Source: Deltaproteobacteria bacterium (lineage in GTDB: Bacteria > Desulfobacterota > BSN033 > UBA1163). From it: a DNA stretch of 34,028 nucleotides. Below the pieces are notes generated by a model, which ran no database searches, was not told where the DNA came from, and was given only the letters and a program-made list of their open reading frames with translations. The DNA is taken from NCBI GenBank assembly GCA_018333535.1, contig JAGXTA010000029.1, positions 1-34,028 on the forward strand, read 5' to 3'. This document shows positions 6,309 to 26,227 of the stretch, one piece after another; within the stretch, counting starts at the first letter, position 1, and the number at the start of each line of letters is the position of its first letter. A program made the translations under genes and the position numbers.

Positions 6309-7241
6309 ATGGTGAGAATAGCTCACTCGATTTCCGAACTGATTGGTCATACACCTTTGTTGAAACTGAAACGAATTACTGAAGGCTCTCAGGGAGAGGT
6401 GGTGGCAAAGCTGGAGTCGTTCAATCCATGCGGCAGCATCAAGGACCGTATCGGCGTGTCGATGATTGATGCAGCAGAGAGAGCCGGACTCATCCGAAAG
6501 GATACGATCATTTTAGAACCCACCAGTGGCAATACAGGGATCGCTCTTGCCTTTGTCTGCGCCTCCAAAGGCTATCCATTGGTTTTAACGATGCCTGATA
6601 CCATGTCAGAAGAAAGAATCCATCTTCTTAAAATTTTTGGAGCTGAGGTCATCCTGACCTCGGGGAATGAAGGAATGACCGGCGCTGTGAGAAAAGCAGA
6701 GGAGATGGCCCGGACAGATTCCCGATATTTTATCCCCCAACAGTTCAGGAATCCTGCCAACCCGGAGATCCATAAAAAGACCACTGCCTTAGAGATCTGG
6801 GAGGACACGGAAGGAAAGATTGATATTCTTGTCGCAGGCGTTGGAACCGGCGGGACCATCACAGGCATCTCAGAAGTCATTAAAAAGAAGAAACCGGAAT
6901 TGAGAACCATTGCTGTAGAGCCGGAAAGCTCTCCCGTGCTCTCCGGAGGAAAACCCGGACCTCACAAAATCCAGGGGATCGGGGCGGGTTTTATCCCGGA
7001 AGTGCTCCGGATGGATCTGGTTGATGAGGTCATCAGGGTATCGAATGAGAACGCAGTGCTATTTACAAAAAGATTGGCAAAGGAAGAGGGTTTGCTTGCC
7101 GGGATCTCATCCGGCGCCGCGGCCTGGGCGGCGATAGAGGTGGCGAAAAGGAAGGAAAACAGGGGAAAGATGATCGTTGTCATCCTTCCTGATACCGGCG
7201 AGCGGTATCTCAGCGCCGGTCTGTATAATGAGCTTAAATAA
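6309..7241 (+). CDS. cysK: cysteine synthase (O-acetylserine sulfhydrylase)
   Basis: 310 residues, the usual CysK length, from ATG 6309 behind AGGAGAC. PLP attaches at Lys45 in [11 protein letters not shown]; the substrate loop is TSGNTG (72-77); [10 protein letters not shown] holds the phosphate of PLP; GISSGAA comes near the end. It makes cysteine from O-acetylserine and sulfide. Like CysK elsewhere, it could also bind a regulator: in Bacillus, CysK partners CymR, an Rrf2 protein, and an Rrf2 gene lies directly upstream here. It probably opens the operon that continues with the homocysteine genes. A second, CysM-like paralogue lies at 25205. Confidence 0.93.
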
Positions 7242-7436: not shown

Positions 7437-8651
7437 ATGGCGAAGACCATTGAGGAGATAAATGAGAAGATCAGGAGAGGAAAGGCGGTTGTTCTGACGG
7501 CTGAGGAGATTATCGATTATGCCGCTGAAAAGGGAGTCAAGAAGACGGCCCAGGATGTGGATGTCGTGACCACAGGGACATTTGGTCCGATGTGTTCCTC
7601 AGGGGCCTATTTCAACGTGGGGCATTCGAAACCCAGAATTAAACTTGGAGGAGGAAAAACCTATCTCAACGATGTTCCGGTTTATACGGGCCTGGCTGCC
7701 GTTGATTTTTTCCTTGGAGCGACGGCCATGCCTGAAGATGACCCTCGAAACAAAATCTACCCCGGGAAGTTTTCTTACGGCGGAGCCCATATCATCGAAG
7801 AGTTGGTTGCAGGAAAGGATGTCCGGCTTACTGCGACGGCTTATGGAACGGACTGCTATCCGAGAAAATCGTTGGAAACCTACATCTCTCTAAAAGATAT
7901 GAATGAAGCCGTTCTATTCAATATGAGGAATGCCTATCAAAATTATAATGTCGCTGTGAACCTCTCAGACAGGATGATCTATACCTATATGGGAGTCATC
8001 CAGCCCAAACTGGGGAATGCCAATTACTGCAATGCAGGCCAGTTGAGCCCTCTTCTCAATGACCCGTATTACAAAACGATCGGCATCGGCACGCGGATCT
8101 TTCTGGGGGGAGGAGTTGGGTATGTCGTTGGAAGCGGAACACAGCATAACCCTGATGTGAAAAGGACGGAGAAAGGGGTTCCCAAGATGACCTCCGGGAC
8201 ACTTGCGGTCAAAGGGGACTTGAAGATGATGAGTTCGAAATGGCTTAAAGGAACTTCTTACACCGGATATGGGGTGACCCTCACCGTTGGGATTGGCGTT
8301 CCAATCCCCATCCTGAATGAGGAGATTCTCCAATATACGATGATTCGGGATGAAGAGATTTGGGCTCAGGTCATAGACTATAGCGATGCCTATCCCCAGT
8401 TCATCCCGGGAAGTTTGGGAGAGGTCAATTACAAACAACTGAAGAGCGGAAAGATAACCGTTCAAGACAGGGAAGTCCCCACCGCCGGGCTTTCCAGCTA
8501 TCTTAAGGCAGGAGAGATTGCCCGGATCCTGAAAGAATGGATCGAGACAGGAAAGTTCTTTTTAACCCAACCGGTTGAACTTCTCCCTTCGGTCGATTCA
8601 GGGATTGCCTTCAAGTCCTTAAAAGAGAGACCTATCAAAAAACGTCATTGA
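7437..8651 (+). CDS. DUF39 homocysteine biosynthesis protein (sulfide incorporation)
   Basis: 404 residues from ATG 7437 behind ACAGGAGGT. The sequence is typical of the DUF39 family (MA1821 of Methanosarcina). That family makes homocysteine from aspartate semialdehyde and sulfide without O-acyl-homoserine, working with a NIL-domain ferredoxin. GTFGPMCSSGAYFNVGH and YGTDCYPRKS contain conserved cysteines (Cys53, Cys140) that are candidates for carrying sulfur. GGGVGYVVGSGTQHNP and LTVGIGVPIPILNEE are conserved glycine-rich parts. The partner ferredoxin follows directly, as in other organisms. Cytoplasmic. Confidence 0.88.
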   Translation: MAKTIEEINEKIRRGKAVVLTAEEIIDYAAEKGVKKTAQDVDVVTTGTFGPMCSSGAYFNVGHSKPRIKLGGGKTYLNDVPVYTGLAAVDFFLGATAMPEDDPRNKIYPGKFSYGGAHIIEELVAGKDVRLTATAYGTDCYPRKSLETYISLKDMNEAVLFNMRNAYQNYNVAVNLSDRMIYTYMGVIQPKLGNANYCNAGQLSPLLNDPYYKTIGIGTRIFLGGGVGYVVGSGTQHNPDVKRTEKGVPKMTSGTLAVKGDLKMMSSKWLKGTSYTGYGVTLTVGIGVPIPILNEEILQYTMIRDEEIWAQVIDYSDAYPQFIPGSLGEVNYKQLKSGKITVQDREVPTAGLSSYLKAGEIARILKEWIETGKFFLTQPVELLPSVDSGIAFKSLKERPIKKRH

Positions 8652-8652
8652 A

Positions 8653-8745
8653 AATTGCAAATTGTAAATTGCAAATTGAAAATTTTCTCAGGAGCTCACA
8701 TTTTGAATTTTGCATTATTAAATTTACACTTTGCATTGTTTTTTT
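8653..8745. repeat. AT-rich palindromic repeat (AAATTGCAAATTG words)
   Basis: Tandem AAATTGCAAATTGTAAATTG words on the left face related TTTGAATTTTGCATT and TTTACACTTTGCATT words on the right. The intergenic gap can thus fold on itself. Similar word-runs (CAATTAGCAATTAGCAAT) fill 10362-10391. Confidence 0.5.
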
Positions 8746-8760
8746 AGAGAGGAGGTTGCC

Positions 8761-9168
8761 ATGCAGAAGAAACGCGTTGTTTTTAATTATCCATCCCACC
8801 TTGTGGATCAACCTGTGATCTCAAAATTGGTGAAGGATTATGATCTTACGGTCAATATTTTAAGGGCACGAATTACCCCCAAGGAAGAAGGAAGGCTCGT
8901 TCTTGAGATGGAGGGGAAAAGGGCGGCCCTTGAGGCCGGACTCAACTATATGAAAGAGATTGGAGTGGATGTCCAGTCTTTAGCCCAGGACGTAAAATGG
9001 TATGAGGATCGTTGCACCCATTGTACGGCTTGTATTTCCGTCTGTCACCCGCAGGCATTGGACGTCAATAGAAAAACGATGGAGGTCTCCTTCAACCGGG
9101 ACAAGTGCATTGCCTGCGAGCTCTGCATTCCGGTCTGCCCTTATCAGGCGATGGAGATTCTGTTTTAA
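8761..9168 (+). CDS. NIL-domain 2[4Fe-4S] ferredoxin, partner of the DUF39 homocysteine protein
   Basis: 135 residues from ATG 8761, behind GAGGAGGTT; a longer frame from 8731 has no ribosome site. Residues 1-77 are a NIL domain, the ACT-like sulfur-metabolism domain also found in MetN and in the carrier fusion at 21829. Residues 82-135 hold two [4Fe-4S] motifs: Cys 85, 88, 91, 95 and Cys 116, 119, 122, 126. In methanogens its homologue (MA1822) is needed with the DUF39 protein for homocysteine formation, presumably supplying electrons or sulfur. It is adjacent to its partner. Cytoplasmic. Confidence 0.9.
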   Translation: MQKKRVVFNYPSHLVDQPVISKLVKDYDLTVNILRARITPKEEGRLVLEMEGKRAALEAGLNYMKEIGVDVQSLAQDVKWYEDRCTHCTACISVCHPQALDVNRKTMEVSFNRDKCIACELCIPVCPYQAMEILF

Positions 9169-19854: not shown

Positions 19855-20319
19855 ATGAGGTTATCTACACAGAGTCGTTATGGAGTAAGGGCTATTTTTG
19901 ATATTGCTTATCATTCCGAGGGGTTAGACACGCAGGTTAAAGACATTTCAAGACGGGAAGGAATCTCTCCGAGGTATATAGAACAGATATTTCAGAAGTT
20001 AAAAAAGGGAGGAATCATTGGCAGCAAGAGAGGTCCATCAGGGGGATACTTTTTAAGCAAGAAGCCCGAGGAAATCACTGTGGGAGAAATTGTTCGGATT
20101 ACCGAAGGGGGCATCAACCCCGTACTCTGCGTTAGCCCAGAGGATTCAAGCAAGCCCTGCGAGAAGTCAGGAGAGTGTGTTACGCAGATCGTTTGGAATG
20201 AAGCAGGAACCAGGCTCAAGGAATATTTTGATTCAATAACGATCAGGGATCTCTGCAAGATGGCCAAAGAGATGGGATTAAAGAAAGAGTTAGATAAAAG
20301 ATTTATGTACTACATCTGA
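19855..20319 (+). CDS. Rrf2-family transcriptional regulator, sulfur block 2
   Basis: 154 residues from ATG 19855. Winged helix-turn-helix at 1-75 (MRLSTQSRYGVRAIFDIA, SPRYIEQIFQKLKKGGIIGS, GPSGGYFLSKKP). Cysteines 92, 102 and 108 could hold an Fe-S cluster, but the spacing (9 and 5 between) differs from IscR and from the first Rrf2 protein (6 and 5). It stands directly ahead of the threonine-synthase-like/sulfur-carrier operon, which it probably controls. It is a paralogue, not a copy, of the gene at 5578. Confidence 0.85.
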   Translation: MRLSTQSRYGVRAIFDIAYHSEGLDTQVKDISRREGISPRYIEQIFQKLKKGGIIGSKRGPSGGYFLSKKPEEITVGEIVRITEGGINPVLCVSPEDSSKPCEKSGECVTQIVWNEAGTRLKEYFDSITIRDLCKMAKEMGLKKELDKRFMYYI

Positions 20320-20542: not shown

Positions 20543-21811
20543 ATGAGTTATATAAAAGGTTTAAAATGCAGGGAATGCAGAAGGGAGTATTCGATCAAGC
20601 CGGTTCATGTTTGTGAATTCTGCTTTGGTCCCTTAGAAGTTGTTTATGATTATGAAGAGATCAAAAAGAGTGTGACACGTGCGAAGATTGAGGGAAGGCC
20701 AAAGACGATGTGGCGGTATAGAGATCTTCTGCCTTTGGATTCTGATCCCGCCGTAGGAAGAAATGTCGGATTTACTCCGCTCATAAAAGCAGAGAGGCTG
20801 GCGGAAGTCCTGGGTGTGAAGGAGCTCTACCTGAAGAATGATGCAGTCAATCATCCGACTCTCTCGTTTAAGGACAGGGTCGTCTCTGTTGCGGTTTCAA
20901 AAGCCAAAGAGTTTGGATTCGAGGTTGTCGCCTGCGCTTCGACAGGAAATCTTGCCAACTCAGTGGCTGCCCTGGCTGCTGAGGGAGGTCTGGATAGCTT
21001 CATCTTTATCCCTCATGATCTGGAAAAGGGGAAGATCCTGGGGACATTGATCTACGGGACGAACCTGATCGGAATCACAGGAAGCTATGATGAGGTCAAC
21101 CGGCTCTGCAGTGAGATTGCCGAGAATTATAGATGGGCCTTTGTCAACATCAACCTCCGTCCTTTTTATGCGGAGGGGTCGAAGACCTTCGGATATGAGA
21201 TTGCAGAACAGATGGGGTGGAGGACGCCCCGGCATGTGATTGTCCCGATGGCCGGAGGGTCGCTCATCACAAAGATCTGGAAAGGGTTCAAAGAGCTGGA
21301 ACTGATCGGCCTGCTTGATGGAGTCGATAGTAAAATCTATGGGGCTCAGGCATCAGGATCGAATCCCATCGTGGCTGCTTTTAAAGAAGGGATCGACTGG
21401 ATTAAGCCCCAGCGGCCTAAAACCATTGCCAAATCTCTGGCCATTGGGAACCCCGCGGATGGTTTCTATGCGCTGAAAACAATCCGGGAGTCCGGAGGGG
21501 CGGCCGAAGATGTGTCGGATGAGGAGATTGTGGAAGCCATGAAACTCCTGGCCCGGACAGAAGGAATCTTCACGGAGACAGCCGGCGGAGTGACGGTCGG
21601 AGTGACGAAGAAATTGATCGATCAAGGAATCATTCCAAGAGATGAATCCATTCTCATCTCAATCACAGGCAATGGCCTGAAAACCCAGGAAGCGATTCAG
21701 GATAGGGTTGGCCGGCCCCTGATTATTGAGGCGAAGTTCTCGGAGTTTGAGAAAACCGTAACTCCGAATCAGAGGAAGTATCGAGAATCAATCGTTCAGG
21801 CAACGCTTTAA
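20543..21811 (+). CDS. thrC: threonine synthase-like PLP enzyme with zinc ribbon
   Basis: 422 residues from ATG 20543 behind AAAGGTGAG. The N-terminal zinc ribbon has Cys 9, 12, 24, 27. PLP Lys110 is in HPTLSFKDRV, followed by ACASTGNLANSVAALAAEGG and VPMAGGSLITKIWKGF. The closest family is threonine synthase (O-phosphohomoserine to threonine). Its place as first gene of a sulfur-carrier operon raises the option that it accepts a sulfur nucleophile instead of water, giving homocysteine, but no residue shows this. The gene symbol reflects sequence family, not a proven reaction. Confidence 0.85.
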   Translation: MSYIKGLKCRECRREYSIKPVHVCEFCFGPLEVVYDYEEIKKSVTRAKIEGRPKTMWRYRDLLPLDSDPAVGRNVGFTPLIKAERLAEVLGVKELYLKNDAVNHPTLSFKDRVVSVAVSKAKEFGFEVVACASTGNLANSVAALAAEGGLDSFIFIPHDLEKGKILGTLIYGTNLIGITGSYDEVNRLCSEIAENYRWAFVNINLRPFYAEGSKTFGYEIAEQMGWRTPRHVIVPMAGGSLITKIWKGFKELELIGLLDGVDSKIYGAQASGSNPIVAAFKEGIDWIKPQRPKTIAKSLAIGNPADGFYALKTIRESGGAAEDVSDEEIVEAMKLLARTEGIFTETAGGVTVGVTKKLIDQGIIPRDESILISITGNGLKTQEAIQDRVGRPLIIEAKFSEFEKTVTPNQRKYRESIVQATL

Positions 21812-21828: not shown

Positions 21829-22344
21829 ATGGACATTCGAGTCAGAATACCGACGCCGCTGAAAAAGCTGGCCGGGGAACAGGATATTGTCTTAGCAAAT
21901 GGGAATACAGTTGGAGAGGTGATCCAGTGGCTCACTGAAACCTATCCAGGGCTTAAGGAAAGGCTCAGGGATGAGAAGGGAGAGGTGAGGCGCTTCATCA
22001 ATATCTATGTGAACGATGAAGATATCCGGTTTGTCCGGAACCTCGAAACTCCTGTAAAAGACGGGGATCAGATCTCAATCATTCCAGCCATTGCCGGAGG
22101 CTCATCCAAGAAAAGAAGGGTGACCCTGACCTTTCCTCAGGAAAGGATTCAGGAACCGGTGATCTATAATATCGGCCACCAGTTTAAGATTGTCACCAAC
22201 ATTCGAAGCGCCAATGTCACGGAGAATGTCGGCTGGGTGACACTTGAGATTGACGGAGAGGAGGGGGAATATTTGAAGGCCCTCGACTATTTGAAGAAAA
22301 TCGGAGTAAAAGCAGAACCGGTGGAGAAGGACGTGATTGTGTAG
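21829..22344 (+). CDS. sulfur carrier (MoaD/ThiS fold) fused to a NIL domain
   Basis: 171 residues from ATG 21829 behind ATAGGAGGA. Residues 1-91 form a ubiquitin-like MoaD/ThiS domain (VRIPTPLKKLAG, FINIYVNDEDIRF, VKDGDQISIIPAIAGG). Gly90-Gly91 are where a free-standing carrier would end and be thiocarboxylated. Here the chain continues, SSKKRR, into a NIL domain (97-171), as in the ferredoxin at 8761. A carrier with internal Gly-Gly needs proteolysis to be active; a JAMM protease is encoded at 24754. Cytoplasmic. Confidence 0.85.
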   Translation: MDIRVRIPTPLKKLAGEQDIVLANGNTVGEVIQWLTETYPGLKERLRDEKGEVRRFINIYVNDEDIRFVRNLETPVKDGDQISIIPAIAGGSSKKRRVTLTFPQERIQEPVIYNIGHQFKIVTNIRSANVTENVGWVTLEIDGEEGEYLKALDYLKKIGVKAEPVEKDVIV

Positions 22345-22514: not shown

Positions 22515-23738
22515 ATGGGTGCAAAGGTGAAACAGTTATTCTGGAAAGTGGCTGGGCCGCTCCTCCGAAGAGCTTTAAAAGAGAAACATAAGGACGTCTC
22601 TGAATTATCCATTCAGGAGGTTAACCAACTTCTTAAAAGGGGAGAGAGCATAGTCCTCCTCGATGTCCGTGAGAAGGAGGAATTGGCCCTGGGATACCTC
22701 AAAGGATCTCTGTTTGTTCCTCGGGCCAGCCTGCCGGAGAAAGCAGAGACCCTGCTTCCAGATAAAGAGGCTTCTATTGTCGTTTACTGTGCGGCAGGGG
22801 TGCGGTCCATCCTCGCAGCCAAGACTTTGCGGGAAATGGGCTACAAACAGGTTGCCTCCATGAGAGAAGGGATTGAGGGGTGGAAAAAGGCGGGATATGA
22901 AGTCTCCAGCCAAACAGGGCTGACCTCCGAACAGCTCACCCGGTACAGCCGCCATATCCTCCTGCAGGAAGTTGGGGCAGAAGGGCAGGCCCAACTCCTG
23001 AAAGCAAAAGTCCTTCTGGTAGGCGCAGGCGGCCTGGGCTGTCCGATAGGTCTCTATCTGGCAGCCGCAGGGGTTGGAACATTAGGTATTATCGATGATG
23101 ACCGTGTGGATCTGACCAATCTCCAGCGGCAAATCCTGCACCGGACTTCTGATGTGGGAAGGCCAAAGGTCGAATCGGCAAAAGAAGCCATCGCAAGGAT
23201 CAATCCGGACGTAAAGGTGGTTACCTACCAGGAGCGCCTCACCTCGGAAAATGCGATTAAGATATTTGAAGATTATGACATCATTGTGGACGGGTCGGAT
23301 AACTTCCCGACGAAGTACCTGGTCAACGATGCGGCCTTCTTTACGGGAAAACCCTTTGTTTTTGGCGGAGTGTTTCAGTTTGAAGGGCAGGCGAGCGTCT
23401 TTGCCCCAAAAGAGGGAGGCCCCTGTTTACGGTGCCTCTTTCCCGAGCCTCCTCCACCCGGGCTTGTCCCCAGCTGAGACGAGGCAGGTGTCCTGGGAGT
23501 TGTGCCCGGGCAAGTTGGTTTGATTCAGGCTACAGAGGCGATCAAGCTTATTTTGAAAATTGGGAAACCTTTGATCGGCCAGTTCTTTATCTATAACGCG
23601 CTCGACGTGGAATTCAAACTCTTTCCGGTCAAGAAGAATCCGTCATGTCCCCTCTGCAATGGGGAGCCAAAGATTAAGGAGCTGGCGGATTATCATGAGG
23701 CGTGCGGTCTGGAGACAAGAAGTCAAGCAACGATTTAG
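22515..23738 (+). CDS. selenoprotein: N-terminal rhodanese fused to MoeB/ThiF-type E1-like enzyme (in-frame UGA 23475-23477)
   Basis: 407 residues if UGA is read as selenocysteine at residue 321. Start ATG 22515 follows GGGGGAACGAG. Residues 27-130 form a rhodanese with Cys92 (VVYCAAGVRS). From 137 the protein is MoeB/ThiF: ATP loop GAGGLG (170-175), NLQRQILH, DNFPTKYLVND, zinc Cys304/307 (CLRC). The frame continues after the UGA as DEAGVLGVVPGQVGLIQATE and reaches the second zinc pair CPLC. The family reads PSC-AEAGVLG at this place; the UGA replaces exactly that conserved Cys (Cys187 of E. coli MoeB, Cys184 of ThiF). It should adenylate the carrier and pass sulfur to it. Confidence 0.85.
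23489..23512 (+). promoter_or_regulatory. candidate SECIS element of the MoeB selenoprotein
   Basis: CCTGGG (23492-23497) pairs with CCCGGG (23505-23510) around the loop AGTTGTG. TG (23489-23490) and CA (23511-23512) lengthen the stem, with T23491 bulged. The stem core begins 14 bases and the loop 20 bases after the UGA, in the normal bacterial range. Confidence 0.55.
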
Positions 23739-23767: not shown

Positions 23768-24745
23768 ATGGAACGAGTCAAGCATCATTTAAAAAGATTA
23801 GTGGGAGGTTTAACTTTACTCCTCGTCACAGTTTTTATTCTTCTCATGTCAAGCCAAATTACGATGGCGATTCCAAACGGAGGATATACGCGACCCGAAC
23901 TTCTGATTCAGCCTGAAGACCTTAAGGTATTGATCGACAAGAAAGACACCGATATCCGGATCATCGATGTCCGGGAAAAGATCAAATATCTTGCCGGTCA
24001 TATTCCGGGAGCCGTGAATATCTGGAGACCCGATATCGTGGATAAGGACCATCCCACCCCAGGGATGGTGGCTCCTCAGGCCCAGGTCGAAGAGCTGATG
24101 GGAAGACTTGGAATCAGCCATCGAAATACGCTCATCATCTATTCCGACGGCGCTGATGGCGCCAGGCTCTGGTGGATATTAGCTTACTATGGTTTTCCCA
24201 TCCGGCAGTTGAAGCTTCTTGACGGCAGTCTTGATGGCTGGAAGGCAAAGGGTTACCCGACCGAGATGATTTCACCTCAGATCAGTCAGACTCAATTCAA
24301 GCTTCCGGGAAAGACGAAATCGATGGAACCTCTGCTCTGCACTTTGCCGGAAGTCAGGGGTGCCTTGAAAGAACCCAAGAAGGTCGTTCTCGATGTCCGG
24401 GCAAGCAAAGAGTATCTTGGAGAGGAGACCCTTGCGGGTGCGGTCAAACCGGGACGCATTCCCGGAGTGAAGTGGATTGAGTGGAGGGAAGTTCTAATAA
24501 AGGAGGGACCCAATAAGGGATACTGGAAATCCGCCGAGGAGATAAGGAAACTCTTTGCTGATTTAGGGGTGACTCCGGATAAGGAAATCTATATCTACTG
24601 ACAGTCCGGGGTGCGCTCGACTCACAGTTTGGTGAGTCTCTATCTGATCGGTTTTCCACTCGAGAAGTTGAGAAATTATGATGGTTCCTGGATCGAATGG
24701 AGTCGGAGTACAGAGGCCATTGAAACAGGGCCACCGAAGAATTAG
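23768..24745 (+). CDS. selenoprotein: exported two-domain rhodanese (in-frame UGA 24599-24601)
   Basis: 325 residues from ATG 23768 with selenocysteine at 278. The start is preferred over 23702 because it gives a proper signal sequence (residues 1-35, LVGGLTLLLVTVFILLMSSQ) and follows AAGGAAG. Domain 1 (45-165) carries YSDGADGAR where an active rhodanese has Cys, so it is the structural half. Domain 2 (190-320) should have the active-site loop YCQSGVRSTH; the DNA encodes Y-UGA-QSGVRSTH. The frame then continues normally (LVSLYLIGFPLEKLRNYDGS) to TAG at 24743. It probably works in the periplasm or membrane as a sulfurtransferase. Confidence 0.85.
24619..24638 (+). promoter_or_regulatory. candidate SECIS element of the rhodanese selenoprotein
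   Basis: GACTCAC (24619-24625) and GTGAGTC (24632-24638) form seven perfect pairs around AGTTTG. The stem begins 17 bases after the UGA. The loop opens AGTT, as in the MoeB hairpin. Confidence 0.6.
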
Positions 24746-24753
24746 AGCAGAAG

Positions 24754-25149
24754 ATGATAAAAATCCCAAAATCGATCTATCGCACCATCATTGAACATGC
24801 CCGGAGAGAGGCGCCCCTGGAATGTTGCGGCATTCTTGGAGGAAGAGAAGGAGCTGTTGAGAAGGCTTTTGATCTCTCCAATACGGAAAGGAGTCAGGTT
24901 CGATATTCGATGTCGCCCCAGGAGCAGTTGAAGGCTTTTGAGGAGATGGACAGGGAATCGCTGGAGATGGTGGCCATCTACCATTCCCATACGCATACGA
25001 TCTCGTTTCCATCAGAGACCGATGTAAAGCTGGCCTTTTATCCTGAGGTGGCATCGGTCATCATCTCTCTGAAAGAGGAGACGCCGGTTGTAAAGGCCTT
25101 TCGGATCAAGGAGGATGCGATCTATTCCGAAGAGATCGAGGTAATCTAA
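24754..25149 (+). CDS. JAMM/MPN+ metalloprotease (Mec-like)
   Basis: 131 residues from ATG 24754, eight bases after the rhodanese stop. The zinc-protease motif is complete: Glu23 (PLECCGIL), His77 and His79 (YHSHTH), Ser87 and Asp90 (SETD), spaced HxH-x7-SxxD. Mec of actinobacteria cleaves cysteine from its adduct with the carrier CysO; HcyD and QbsD have related roles. Its neighbours here are a carrier and a CysM-like enzyme, the same set as CysO-CysM-Mec. It may also cut the carrier-NIL fusion after Gly-Gly. Cytoplasmic. Confidence 0.9.
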   Translation: MIKIPKSIYRTIIEHARREAPLECCGILGGREGAVEKAFDLSNTERSQVRYSMSPQEQLKAFEEMDRESLEMVAIYHSHTHTISFPSETDVKLAFYPEVASVIISLKEETPVVKAFRIKEDAIYSEEIEVI

Positions 25150-25204: not shown

Positions 25205-26227
25205 TTGGAAATGCCTATGGAAGCCATTCAAATAAGAGATGAAATTGAATCACGAAGGGAGTTGAGAAAGGAGAAACCTCTCTCTTTGCTCACTTCGATC
25301 GGCAATACGCCCCTGATTCAGATTCGGCAGTTGACAAATCACATCGGAGGGGTTCAGATCTTTGCCAAGGCAGAGTGGCTCAATCCCGGTGGCTCTGTAA
25401 AGGACCGCGCAGGTCGAAAGATCATCGAAGATGGGGAAAAATCTGGTCAACTCACAAAGGAGAAGATCATTCTCGATTCCACATCGGGCAACACAGGAAT
25501 TGCTTATGCAATGATCGGTGCCATCAAGGGATACAGGGTGGAACTGGTCGTGCCGGCCAATATCAGCGAGGAAAGAAAGAAAGCCCTGGAGGCCTATGGG
25601 GTAAAACTGATCTACACGGACCCGGTCCTGGGGTCAGATGGCGCACTTGTCGAAGCAAAGAGGATTTATGAGGCCAATCCGTGCCTCTATTTTAAGGCGG
25701 ATCAATATAATAATCCCGCAAACTGGAAGGCTCACTATGAGACCACAGGAATTGAGATTCTTCAACAGACCGGATGGAAAGTGACCCACTTTGTTGCAGG
25801 CGTGGGGACAGGTGGAACGTTGATCGGAACAGGCAGAAGATTGAGAGAGTTTAATCCTGACATTAAACTATTTGGTGTTCAGCCGGACAGCGGCTTTCAT
25901 GGAATAGAGGGGTTGAAGCATATCGAAACCGCCATCCGGCCGGGCATTTATGATGAAACCATCTTGAATGGTACGTTTTTTGTGAAGACAGAAGACGCCT
26001 TTGGAATGGCGAACCGTCTTACCAGGGAAGAAGGGCTATGGGTAGGTCCTTCTTCGGGCGCTGCTTTCTGGGCATCCTTAAAGTTGGCAGAGTCGGTGTC
26101 CCAAGGCGTGATTGTAACAATATTTCCGGATGGAGGAGCACGATATCCTGAGTATTGTATTGATTGCGAGAAACAGAAGAAACGGCTCTCAGTTGAACAT
26201 CTACCGCTAAGACCTTCACCCCCCTAA
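25205..26227 (+). CDS. cysM: CysM-like cysteine synthase
   Basis: 340 residues from TTG 25205; an ATG two codons on is also possible. PLP Lys66 in NPGGSVKDRAG, TSGNTG (93-98), GVGTGGTLIG and GPSSGAA are all intact. The form fits the CysM/OPS-sulfhydrylase side of the family, and the neighbouring carrier and JAMM protease match the CysO route. The gene is distinct from cysK (6309). The C-terminus adds EYCIDCEKQKKRL, with two further cysteines, and its last codons overlap the structured RNA element at 26183. I infer that it accepts carrier-thiocarboxylate sulfur. Confidence 0.85.
   Translation: MEMPMEAIQIRDEIESRRELRKEKPLSLLTSIGNTPLIQIRQLTNHIGGVQIFAKAEWLNPGGSVKDRAGRKIIEDGEKSGQLTKEKIILDSTSGNTGIAYAMIGAIKGYRVELVVPANISEERKKALEAYGVKLIYTDPVLGSDGALVEAKRIYEANPCLYFKADQYNNPANWKAHYETTGIEILQQTGWKVTHFVAGVGTGGTLIGTGRRLREFNPDIKLFGVQPDSGFHGIEGLKHIETAIRPGIYDETILNGTFFVKTEDAFGMANRLTREEGLWVGPSSGAAFWASLKLAESVSQGVIVTIFPDGGARYPEYCIDCEKQKKRLSVEHLPLRPSPP

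Follow-up and report, generated by a model that had tools for sequence, protein, structure and literature searches.

The 171-amino acid protein encoded by the forward-strand open reading frame (ORF) at 21829–22344 (coding part 21829–22341) of the 34,028-nucleotide stretch of DNA analyzed here (the window) is probably the pro-form of a CysO-type sulfur carrier, predicted from sequence comparisons to be cut behind Gly91 by the JAMM metalloprotease of the same operon. The Gly-Gly of the carrier is present and invariant, but it lies inside the chain, followed by a NIL domain, and would become terminal only upon cleavage. Cleavage of ThiS/MoaD fusions by JAB proteases was proposed by Iyer et al. 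in 2006 (PMC1779556), a paper that does not mention NIL, and a search of open-licence papers pairing NIL with 'sulfur carrier protein' or with MoaD, these word pairs only, found none. The concept of JAB-cut carrier fusions is known, while the NIL and threonine synthase (ThrC)-like partners described below are not described in the searched literature. These proteins offer a clean natural experiment on the idea that ubiquitin-like carriers are matured from fusions by JAMM/JAB proteases, a form of maturation thought to precede eukaryotic ubiquitin processing.

Architecture of the carrier–NIL protein

The original prediction of a sulfur carrier with an internal Gly-Gly fused to a NIL domain is borne out by the reading of the ORF (SIIPAIAGG, ending at residues 90–91, then SSKKRRVTLTF) and by Pfam matches to both halves. 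The N-terminal half matches ThiS (PF02597; residues 5–91, E 1.9e-19, above the gathering score), and among the 80 residues C-terminal of Gly91 is a match to NIL (PF09383; residues 96–163, E 3.5e-15, 56.1 bits versus a gathering score of 24). An assembly or frameshift artefact was ruled out, as the uninterrupted fusion recurs in the same genus, in the same family and in other phyla.

The nearest solved proteins to the carrier are CysO from M. tuberculosis (3dwg; 3.9e-22, 49% identity) and Amycolatopsis CysO (4n6e), the chains of which stop at the two glycines corresponding to Gly90-Gly91 in the alignment. The third-best solved relative is a two-domain MoaD-related protein from Thermus thermophilus (1v8c), in which the AGG is also internal and is followed by a second small domain. 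The predicted structure of the fusion has a mean pLDDT of 85 and contains two well folded domains. The carrier domain of the model resembles CysO (versus 3dwg, Z 16.5; versus 4n6e, Z 16.6, rmsd 1.4, 89 residues aligned), consistent with the ThiS-family β-grasp fold indicated by PF02597, and the second domain has an ACT-like fold that matches the NIL/C2 domain of MetN (3tuz, Z 12.7), in agreement with its NIL family match. The glycine pair sits in the loop joining the last carrier strand (81–86) to the first NIL strand (95–103).

The basic SSKKRR stretch was at first taken for an exposed cleavage linker, which proved to be wrong. Because free-standing NIL proteins start with the same basic residues (M-KKRVYLTF, M-KKRVYLTY, M-KKRVKLTF, M-AKTSKRVWLTF and similar), the KKRR of the fusion represents the NIL N-terminus and first strand, and these N-termini, the alignment of the fusions and the position of β1 in the model together rule out a basic protease signal. 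The true linker is about two to three residues long here, about Ser92-Ser93(-Lys94), and the residues that follow GG vary freely among the fusions (SSK, ASK, API, ADT, AIE, VEENDPKNIT, AAS, GDT, AQK).

The suggestion that NIL is a common adaptor in sulfur metabolism fared less evenly. A NIL domain is indeed present in the ferredoxin encoded at 8731/8761–9168 (1.6e-16), and the NIL domain of the fusion is homologous to it (30% identity), making a shared role plausible. However, carrier-linked NIL domains nearly always have N-I-R (or D/S-I-R) in place of the name-giving N-I-L that the ferredoxin retains, and on these sequence grounds they are a subfamily of their own. The NIL-ferredoxin/HcyA homocysteine system and MetN further differ from the fusion in having no carrier. 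In MetN, the Asn of N-I-L sits at the methionine site; an anionic ligand for carrier-linked NIL is a guess. Within the window, HcyBio (DUF39; 7437–8648) and the NIL-ferredoxin (8731–9168) correspond to the known aspartate-semialdehyde route to homocysteine, and a CysK-like synthase is encoded at 6309–7241.

Split and fused relatives

Relatives of the fusion (P0001) were sought in 297 genomes from the phylum of the window and in a public species collection (80 loci kept), using locus-finding peptides that excluded GG. Six-frame classification was applied to 112 loci, and the C-terminus of every carrier was read. All aligned carriers (approximately 114) share the motif A-[IVLM]-A-G-G, including every fusion to NIL (20 distinct fusions), E1 or CysM, a degree of conservation that, judged from the alignment, is more than chance. 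The free-standing carrier and NIL relatives that the original prediction proposed to look for were found as separate genes in many phyla, and no homologue without Gly-Gly at the junction was found among the aligned relatives.

The relatives form a series in which the carrier (a) ends exactly in GG, (b) ends in GG plus a short tail, mostly of 1–20 residues, (c) is adjacent to a NIL gene, the start of which is often overlapped by the carrier stop, (d) is separated from the NIL gene by one or more genes, (e) is fused to NIL, or (f) is N-terminal to E1 or CysM in one protein. The usual arrangement, found in many phyla, is a carrier gene ending in GG or in GG plus a short tail with a separate NIL gene as its neighbor. 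In the Nitrospirota, the phylum of the metagenome-assembled genome G306, matches were obtained in 231 of 245 genomes, most of which have two, and the 30 loci read there show the same junction classes plus one more fusion (L124). A tree of carrier and NIL (69 rows, linker omitted) requires at least four changes between the fused and split states, and cannot separate gain from loss of the fusion. In this tree, the fused pair L046/L047 is nested in a well supported and otherwise split Nitrospirota group, and the fused L040 groups with 11 split rows.

Several other features of these loci were observed. Further fusions with an internal AGG place the carrier before E1 (L080, L083, L084, L105, L109, L111) or before CysM (L071). 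In split loci with no more than 15 nt between the carrier Gly-Gly and the NIL start (such as L019, L022 and L072), the glycine codons are GGA-GGN in 18 of 27 cases, versus 27 of 108 elsewhere (p 8e-5, uncorrected for kinship), and the Gly-Gly codons may double there as the Shine-Dalgarno sequence of the NIL gene.

The putative sulfur-transfer operon and predicted processing of the carrier

The carrier, a rhodanese-containing E1, CysM and JAMM, i.e., the gene set of the CysO–Mec+ system, are all present in the window (Table 1) and are conserved in relatives. The CysO/MoeZR/CysM/Mec+ pathway of M. tuberculosis (3dwg, 3dwm) is an experimental model for such systems (PMC3227635). In contrast to that pathway, where CysO stops at Gly-Gly and has no NIL, the carrier here is fused to NIL and accompanied by a ThrC-like enzyme. 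In addition, the rhodanese domain precedes MoeB in the E1 chain, and selenocysteine probably takes the place of the E1 cysteine. The TGA codon replaces the conserved Cys codon in 14 of 14 E1 loci of the family of the window, whereas 42 other loci have Cys. Because this TGA is common to all family members and the genome encodes SelB (368 bits) and tRNA-Sec (76.5 bits), the E1 reads as a probable selenoprotein, as does the double rhodanese, and the explanation of the 'split' E1 gene as a pseudogene or sequencing error was rejected. Selenoproteins of the MoeB and rhodanese types have been described (PMC1088965). An Rfam search of the window gave no match above gathering scores.

Table 1. Features of the carrier–NIL operon in the window
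Feature	Position	Strand	Evidence
Rrf2/IscR/CymR-type regulator, upstream of cluster	19855..20319	+	TIGR00738, 123 bits; conserved upstream in L033–L039 except truncated L036
Threonine-synthase-like PLP enzyme with N-terminal CxxC...CxxC (zinc-ribbon-like)	20543..21811	+	PF00291; TIGR00260, 298 bits; tree; active-site differences
CysO-like ThiS/MoaD β-grasp carrier domain, residues 1–91, ending AIAGG	21829..22101	+	PF02597; NCBIfam SAMP1; M. tuberculosis CysO 3dwg; model versus 4n6e
Gly90-Gly91 codons (GGA GGC), putative cleavage and thiocarboxylate site	22096..22101	+	Present without exception in aligned carriers, both fused and unfused
Variable short linker, Ser92-Ser93-Lys94	22102..22110	+	Alignment; model (loop between strands 81–86 and 95–103)
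NIL domain, residues 95–171, β1 opening with basic KRR	22111..22341	+	PF09383; MetN 3tuz; free-standing homologues start MKKRVYLTF
Rhodanese-MoeB type E1 activating enzyme; in-frame TGA (23475–23477) at conserved Cys (PSUDEAGVLG)	22515..23738	+	PF00581 and PF00899; read-through
Double rhodanese; in-frame TGA (24599–24601) at catalytic Cys (YUQSGVRS)	23768..24745	+	PF00581; translation; relatives; start codon chosen by the analysts
JAMM/Prok-JAB metalloprotease	24754..25149	+	PF14464, 2.5e-25, 89 bits; motif; Pyrococcus JAMM1 5lda, 2e-13
CysM-type cysteine synthase	25205..26227	+	TIGR01138, 347 bits (equivalog cut-off 394); E. coli CysM 2bht, 1.5e-62; M. tuberculosis CysM 3dwg, 9e-54

The JAMM gene named in the original prediction is genuine, and the catalytic and metal-binding residues of its product are intact (E23 and H77-S-H79-x7-S87-x2-D90; HSHTHTISFPSETD at 77–90). 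Of the fused loci with sufficient flanking sequence, most have JAMM in the operon. Across the 297-genome sample, Prok-JAB (JAMM) is encoded by 33 of the 37 genomes that have a CysO-like carrier (counted at ≥90 bits) versus 42 of the 260 that have none (Fisher p 9e-19, uncorrected for kinship, such that shared ancestry overstates the independence of the genomes). Among genomes with fused carriers, no JAMM match was found in G124 (79% complete), G096 (86% complete) and G302 (where the contig ends just behind E1); G061, of the same genus as the G124/G096 case, does have a match. JAMM was also not found in G140 (99% complete, carrier–E1 fusion) and G043 (GGLSL tail), two genomes in which incompleteness or a contig break does not account for its absence. 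JAMM also occurs alongside carriers with no residues beyond GG (G128, G147) and must therefore have a further task, as Mec+ has.

A mechanism can be proposed from this gene set. First, JAMM would hydrolyze the bond behind Gly91, giving the carrier (residues 1–91) with a free carboxylate and a separate NIL protein (residues 92–171). Next, the E1 would adenylate Gly91, and its rhodanese persulfide would convert Gly91 to the thiocarboxylate. Sulfur transfer by a PLP enzyme would come next: the ThrC-like enzyme and/or CysM, both encoded in the operon, would insert the sulfur into an activated substrate of the serine or homoserine type to give a carrier–amino acid adduct. Finally, JAMM would strip the amino acid off the carrier, as Mec+ does for CysO-Cys, and thereby regenerate it. 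The NIL domain, whose ACT-like fold is of a type that binds amino acids, may function as a separate subunit or as a ligand sensor of the sulfur-insertion machinery. Fusion would set the carrier and NIL at a 1:1 ratio; most relatives encode NIL in a gene of its own, often overlapping.

Processing of this kind, one of the two possibilities raised in the original prediction, fits the evolutionary record in that the internal Gly-Gly never drifts, split relatives exist, the operon has an intact JAMM gene and no homologue was found to lack GG at the junction. For carriers with a capped Gly-Gly, a protease such as QbsD is typically required (PMC6006322). Similar to QbsE/QbsD and PtmS2/PtmS1, in which a protease of the JAMM family must remove the residues behind Gly-Gly before activation, the protein described here combines a blocked Gly-Gly with a JAMM gene, a likeness in architecture and gene content. 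In contrast, the caps in those systems are 1–2 residues long and serve secondary metabolism, whereas an 80-residue folded domain would be removed here. Three points count against a pro-protein cut by JAMM: the presence of JAMM is not specific to the fusion, some genomes with fused or tailed carriers lack a JAMM match, and, by analogy, MoaX is an internal-GG fusion the cleavage of which is only presumed.

The first two of these points would also be accommodated if another peptidase cut behind Gly91 and JAMM acted only in amino-acid release in the manner of Mec+, since JAMM is found with carriers that require no trimming and a small number of genomes whose carrier is fused or tailed lack a match to it. 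The QbsD precedent for capped carriers and the sharing of an operon by JAMM and most fused carriers nonetheless make a second peptidase unlikely. Slightly less probable still is a fusion that works uncut, the other possibility originally raised, in which the carrier domain would only dock NIL to the E1 or PLP enzymes and no thiocarboxylate would form. Both domains of the predicted model are well folded and the carrier and NIL genes are functionally linked anyway, but the Gly-Gly is conserved despite being free to drift and the operon holds the full thiocarboxylate machinery (E1-rhodanese, CysM, JAMM). Adenylation by E1 requires a C-terminal carboxylate on a free glycine, as established for MoaD/MoeB. 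Because of this requirement, and because a search of the genome itself found no second CysO-like carrier (the next match has 30% identity), the uncut fusion could not serve as a sulfur carrier. The need for a free C-terminal glycine has likewise been stated for MoaX (PMC3227635), the MoaD–MoaE fusion of M. tuberculosis, which resembles the carrier–NIL protein in its internal Gly-Gly, its second domain fused behind and its presumed cleavage, but differs in having MoaE as partner and in serving molybdopterin synthesis.

A role of the carrier mainly as a SAMP/Urm1-like protein modifier, with JAMM as its desampylase and NIL as a targeting tail, is improbable to the same degree as the uncut fusion. 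The carrier does score above the cut-off of the NCBIfam SAMP1 model (67.3 versus 60 bits), and JAMM matches the haloarchaeal desampylase model, if below its cut-off (84.5 versus 130). Yet the closest solved relatives of the carrier are CysO proteins, and sulfur amino-acid metabolism runs throughout the neighborhood. Lastly, an internal start codon that would supply free NIL with no need for cleavage (codon 98 of the fused gene is a GTG here and in most same-genus relatives) is very improbable and was rejected as a general route, since the junctions of seven fused loci (L008, L013, L014, L040, L046, L047, L124) have no start codon and Gly91 of the carrier would be left unfreed.

The threonine-synthase-like partner

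In most carrier–NIL loci, the ThrC-like gene lies directly upstream. The linked enzyme is one of at least two ThrC homologues in 19 of 20 genomes checked, and a canonical ThrC is encoded elsewhere in the genome of the window; the linked enzyme was consequently rejected as the only threonine synthase of the cell. Linked proteins (taken at ≥400 bits) and unlinked proteins fall on two sides of one branch with a support of 100, in a quick tree with some long branches. Motifs that are fixed in 13 unlinked ThrC proteins of the same genomes (GNTSAS, NPYRIEGQKT, GNAGN, NPASW, PASAAS, GHGLK) are replaced in the carrier-linked enzymes by equally fixed counterparts (GNLANS, INLRPFYAEGSKT, MAGGS, NPADG, TAGGVT, GNGLK), such that the linked enzymes lack the ThrC motifs. 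The changed motifs surround the PLP site, and the N-terminal CxxC pair is present in addition. The carrier-linked enzymes form a family separate from true ThrC, and their score as threonine synthase is probably misleading. Cysteate synthase, which uses O-phosphoserine, is already known as a paralogue of ThrC and lends credibility to the idea of a sulfur-inserting one.

The cassette of ThrC-like enzyme, CysO-like carrier and NIL is seemingly widespread and undescribed, being found in most sampled Nitrospirota genomes and in many other phyla. It is conceivable, although somewhat short of an even prospect, that it constitutes an undescribed and widespread route to sulfur amino acids, with the fusion as one of its visible states, in which the ThrC-derived PLP enzyme takes sulfur from the carrier thiocarboxylate, perhaps with O-phosphohomoserine or O-phosphoserine as the acceptor, NIL binds the substrate or product, and the same JAMM releases NIL and later frees the product. 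Because the PLP enzyme of the cassette scores as threonine synthase, the sulfur amino-acid metabolism of many genomes may have been misinterpreted.

Two variations in the neighborhood of the cassette were also observed. In two Methylomirabilota loci (L081, L093), two NIL genes in tandem precede the ThrC-like gene and the carrier. In four other loci (L010, L023, L053, L055), the ORF of approximately 1 kb upstream of the carrier, considered as a NIL-ferredoxin-like candidate, does not encode a NIL protein but a small sulfite-reductase-like protein (NIR_SIR plus 4Fe-4S).
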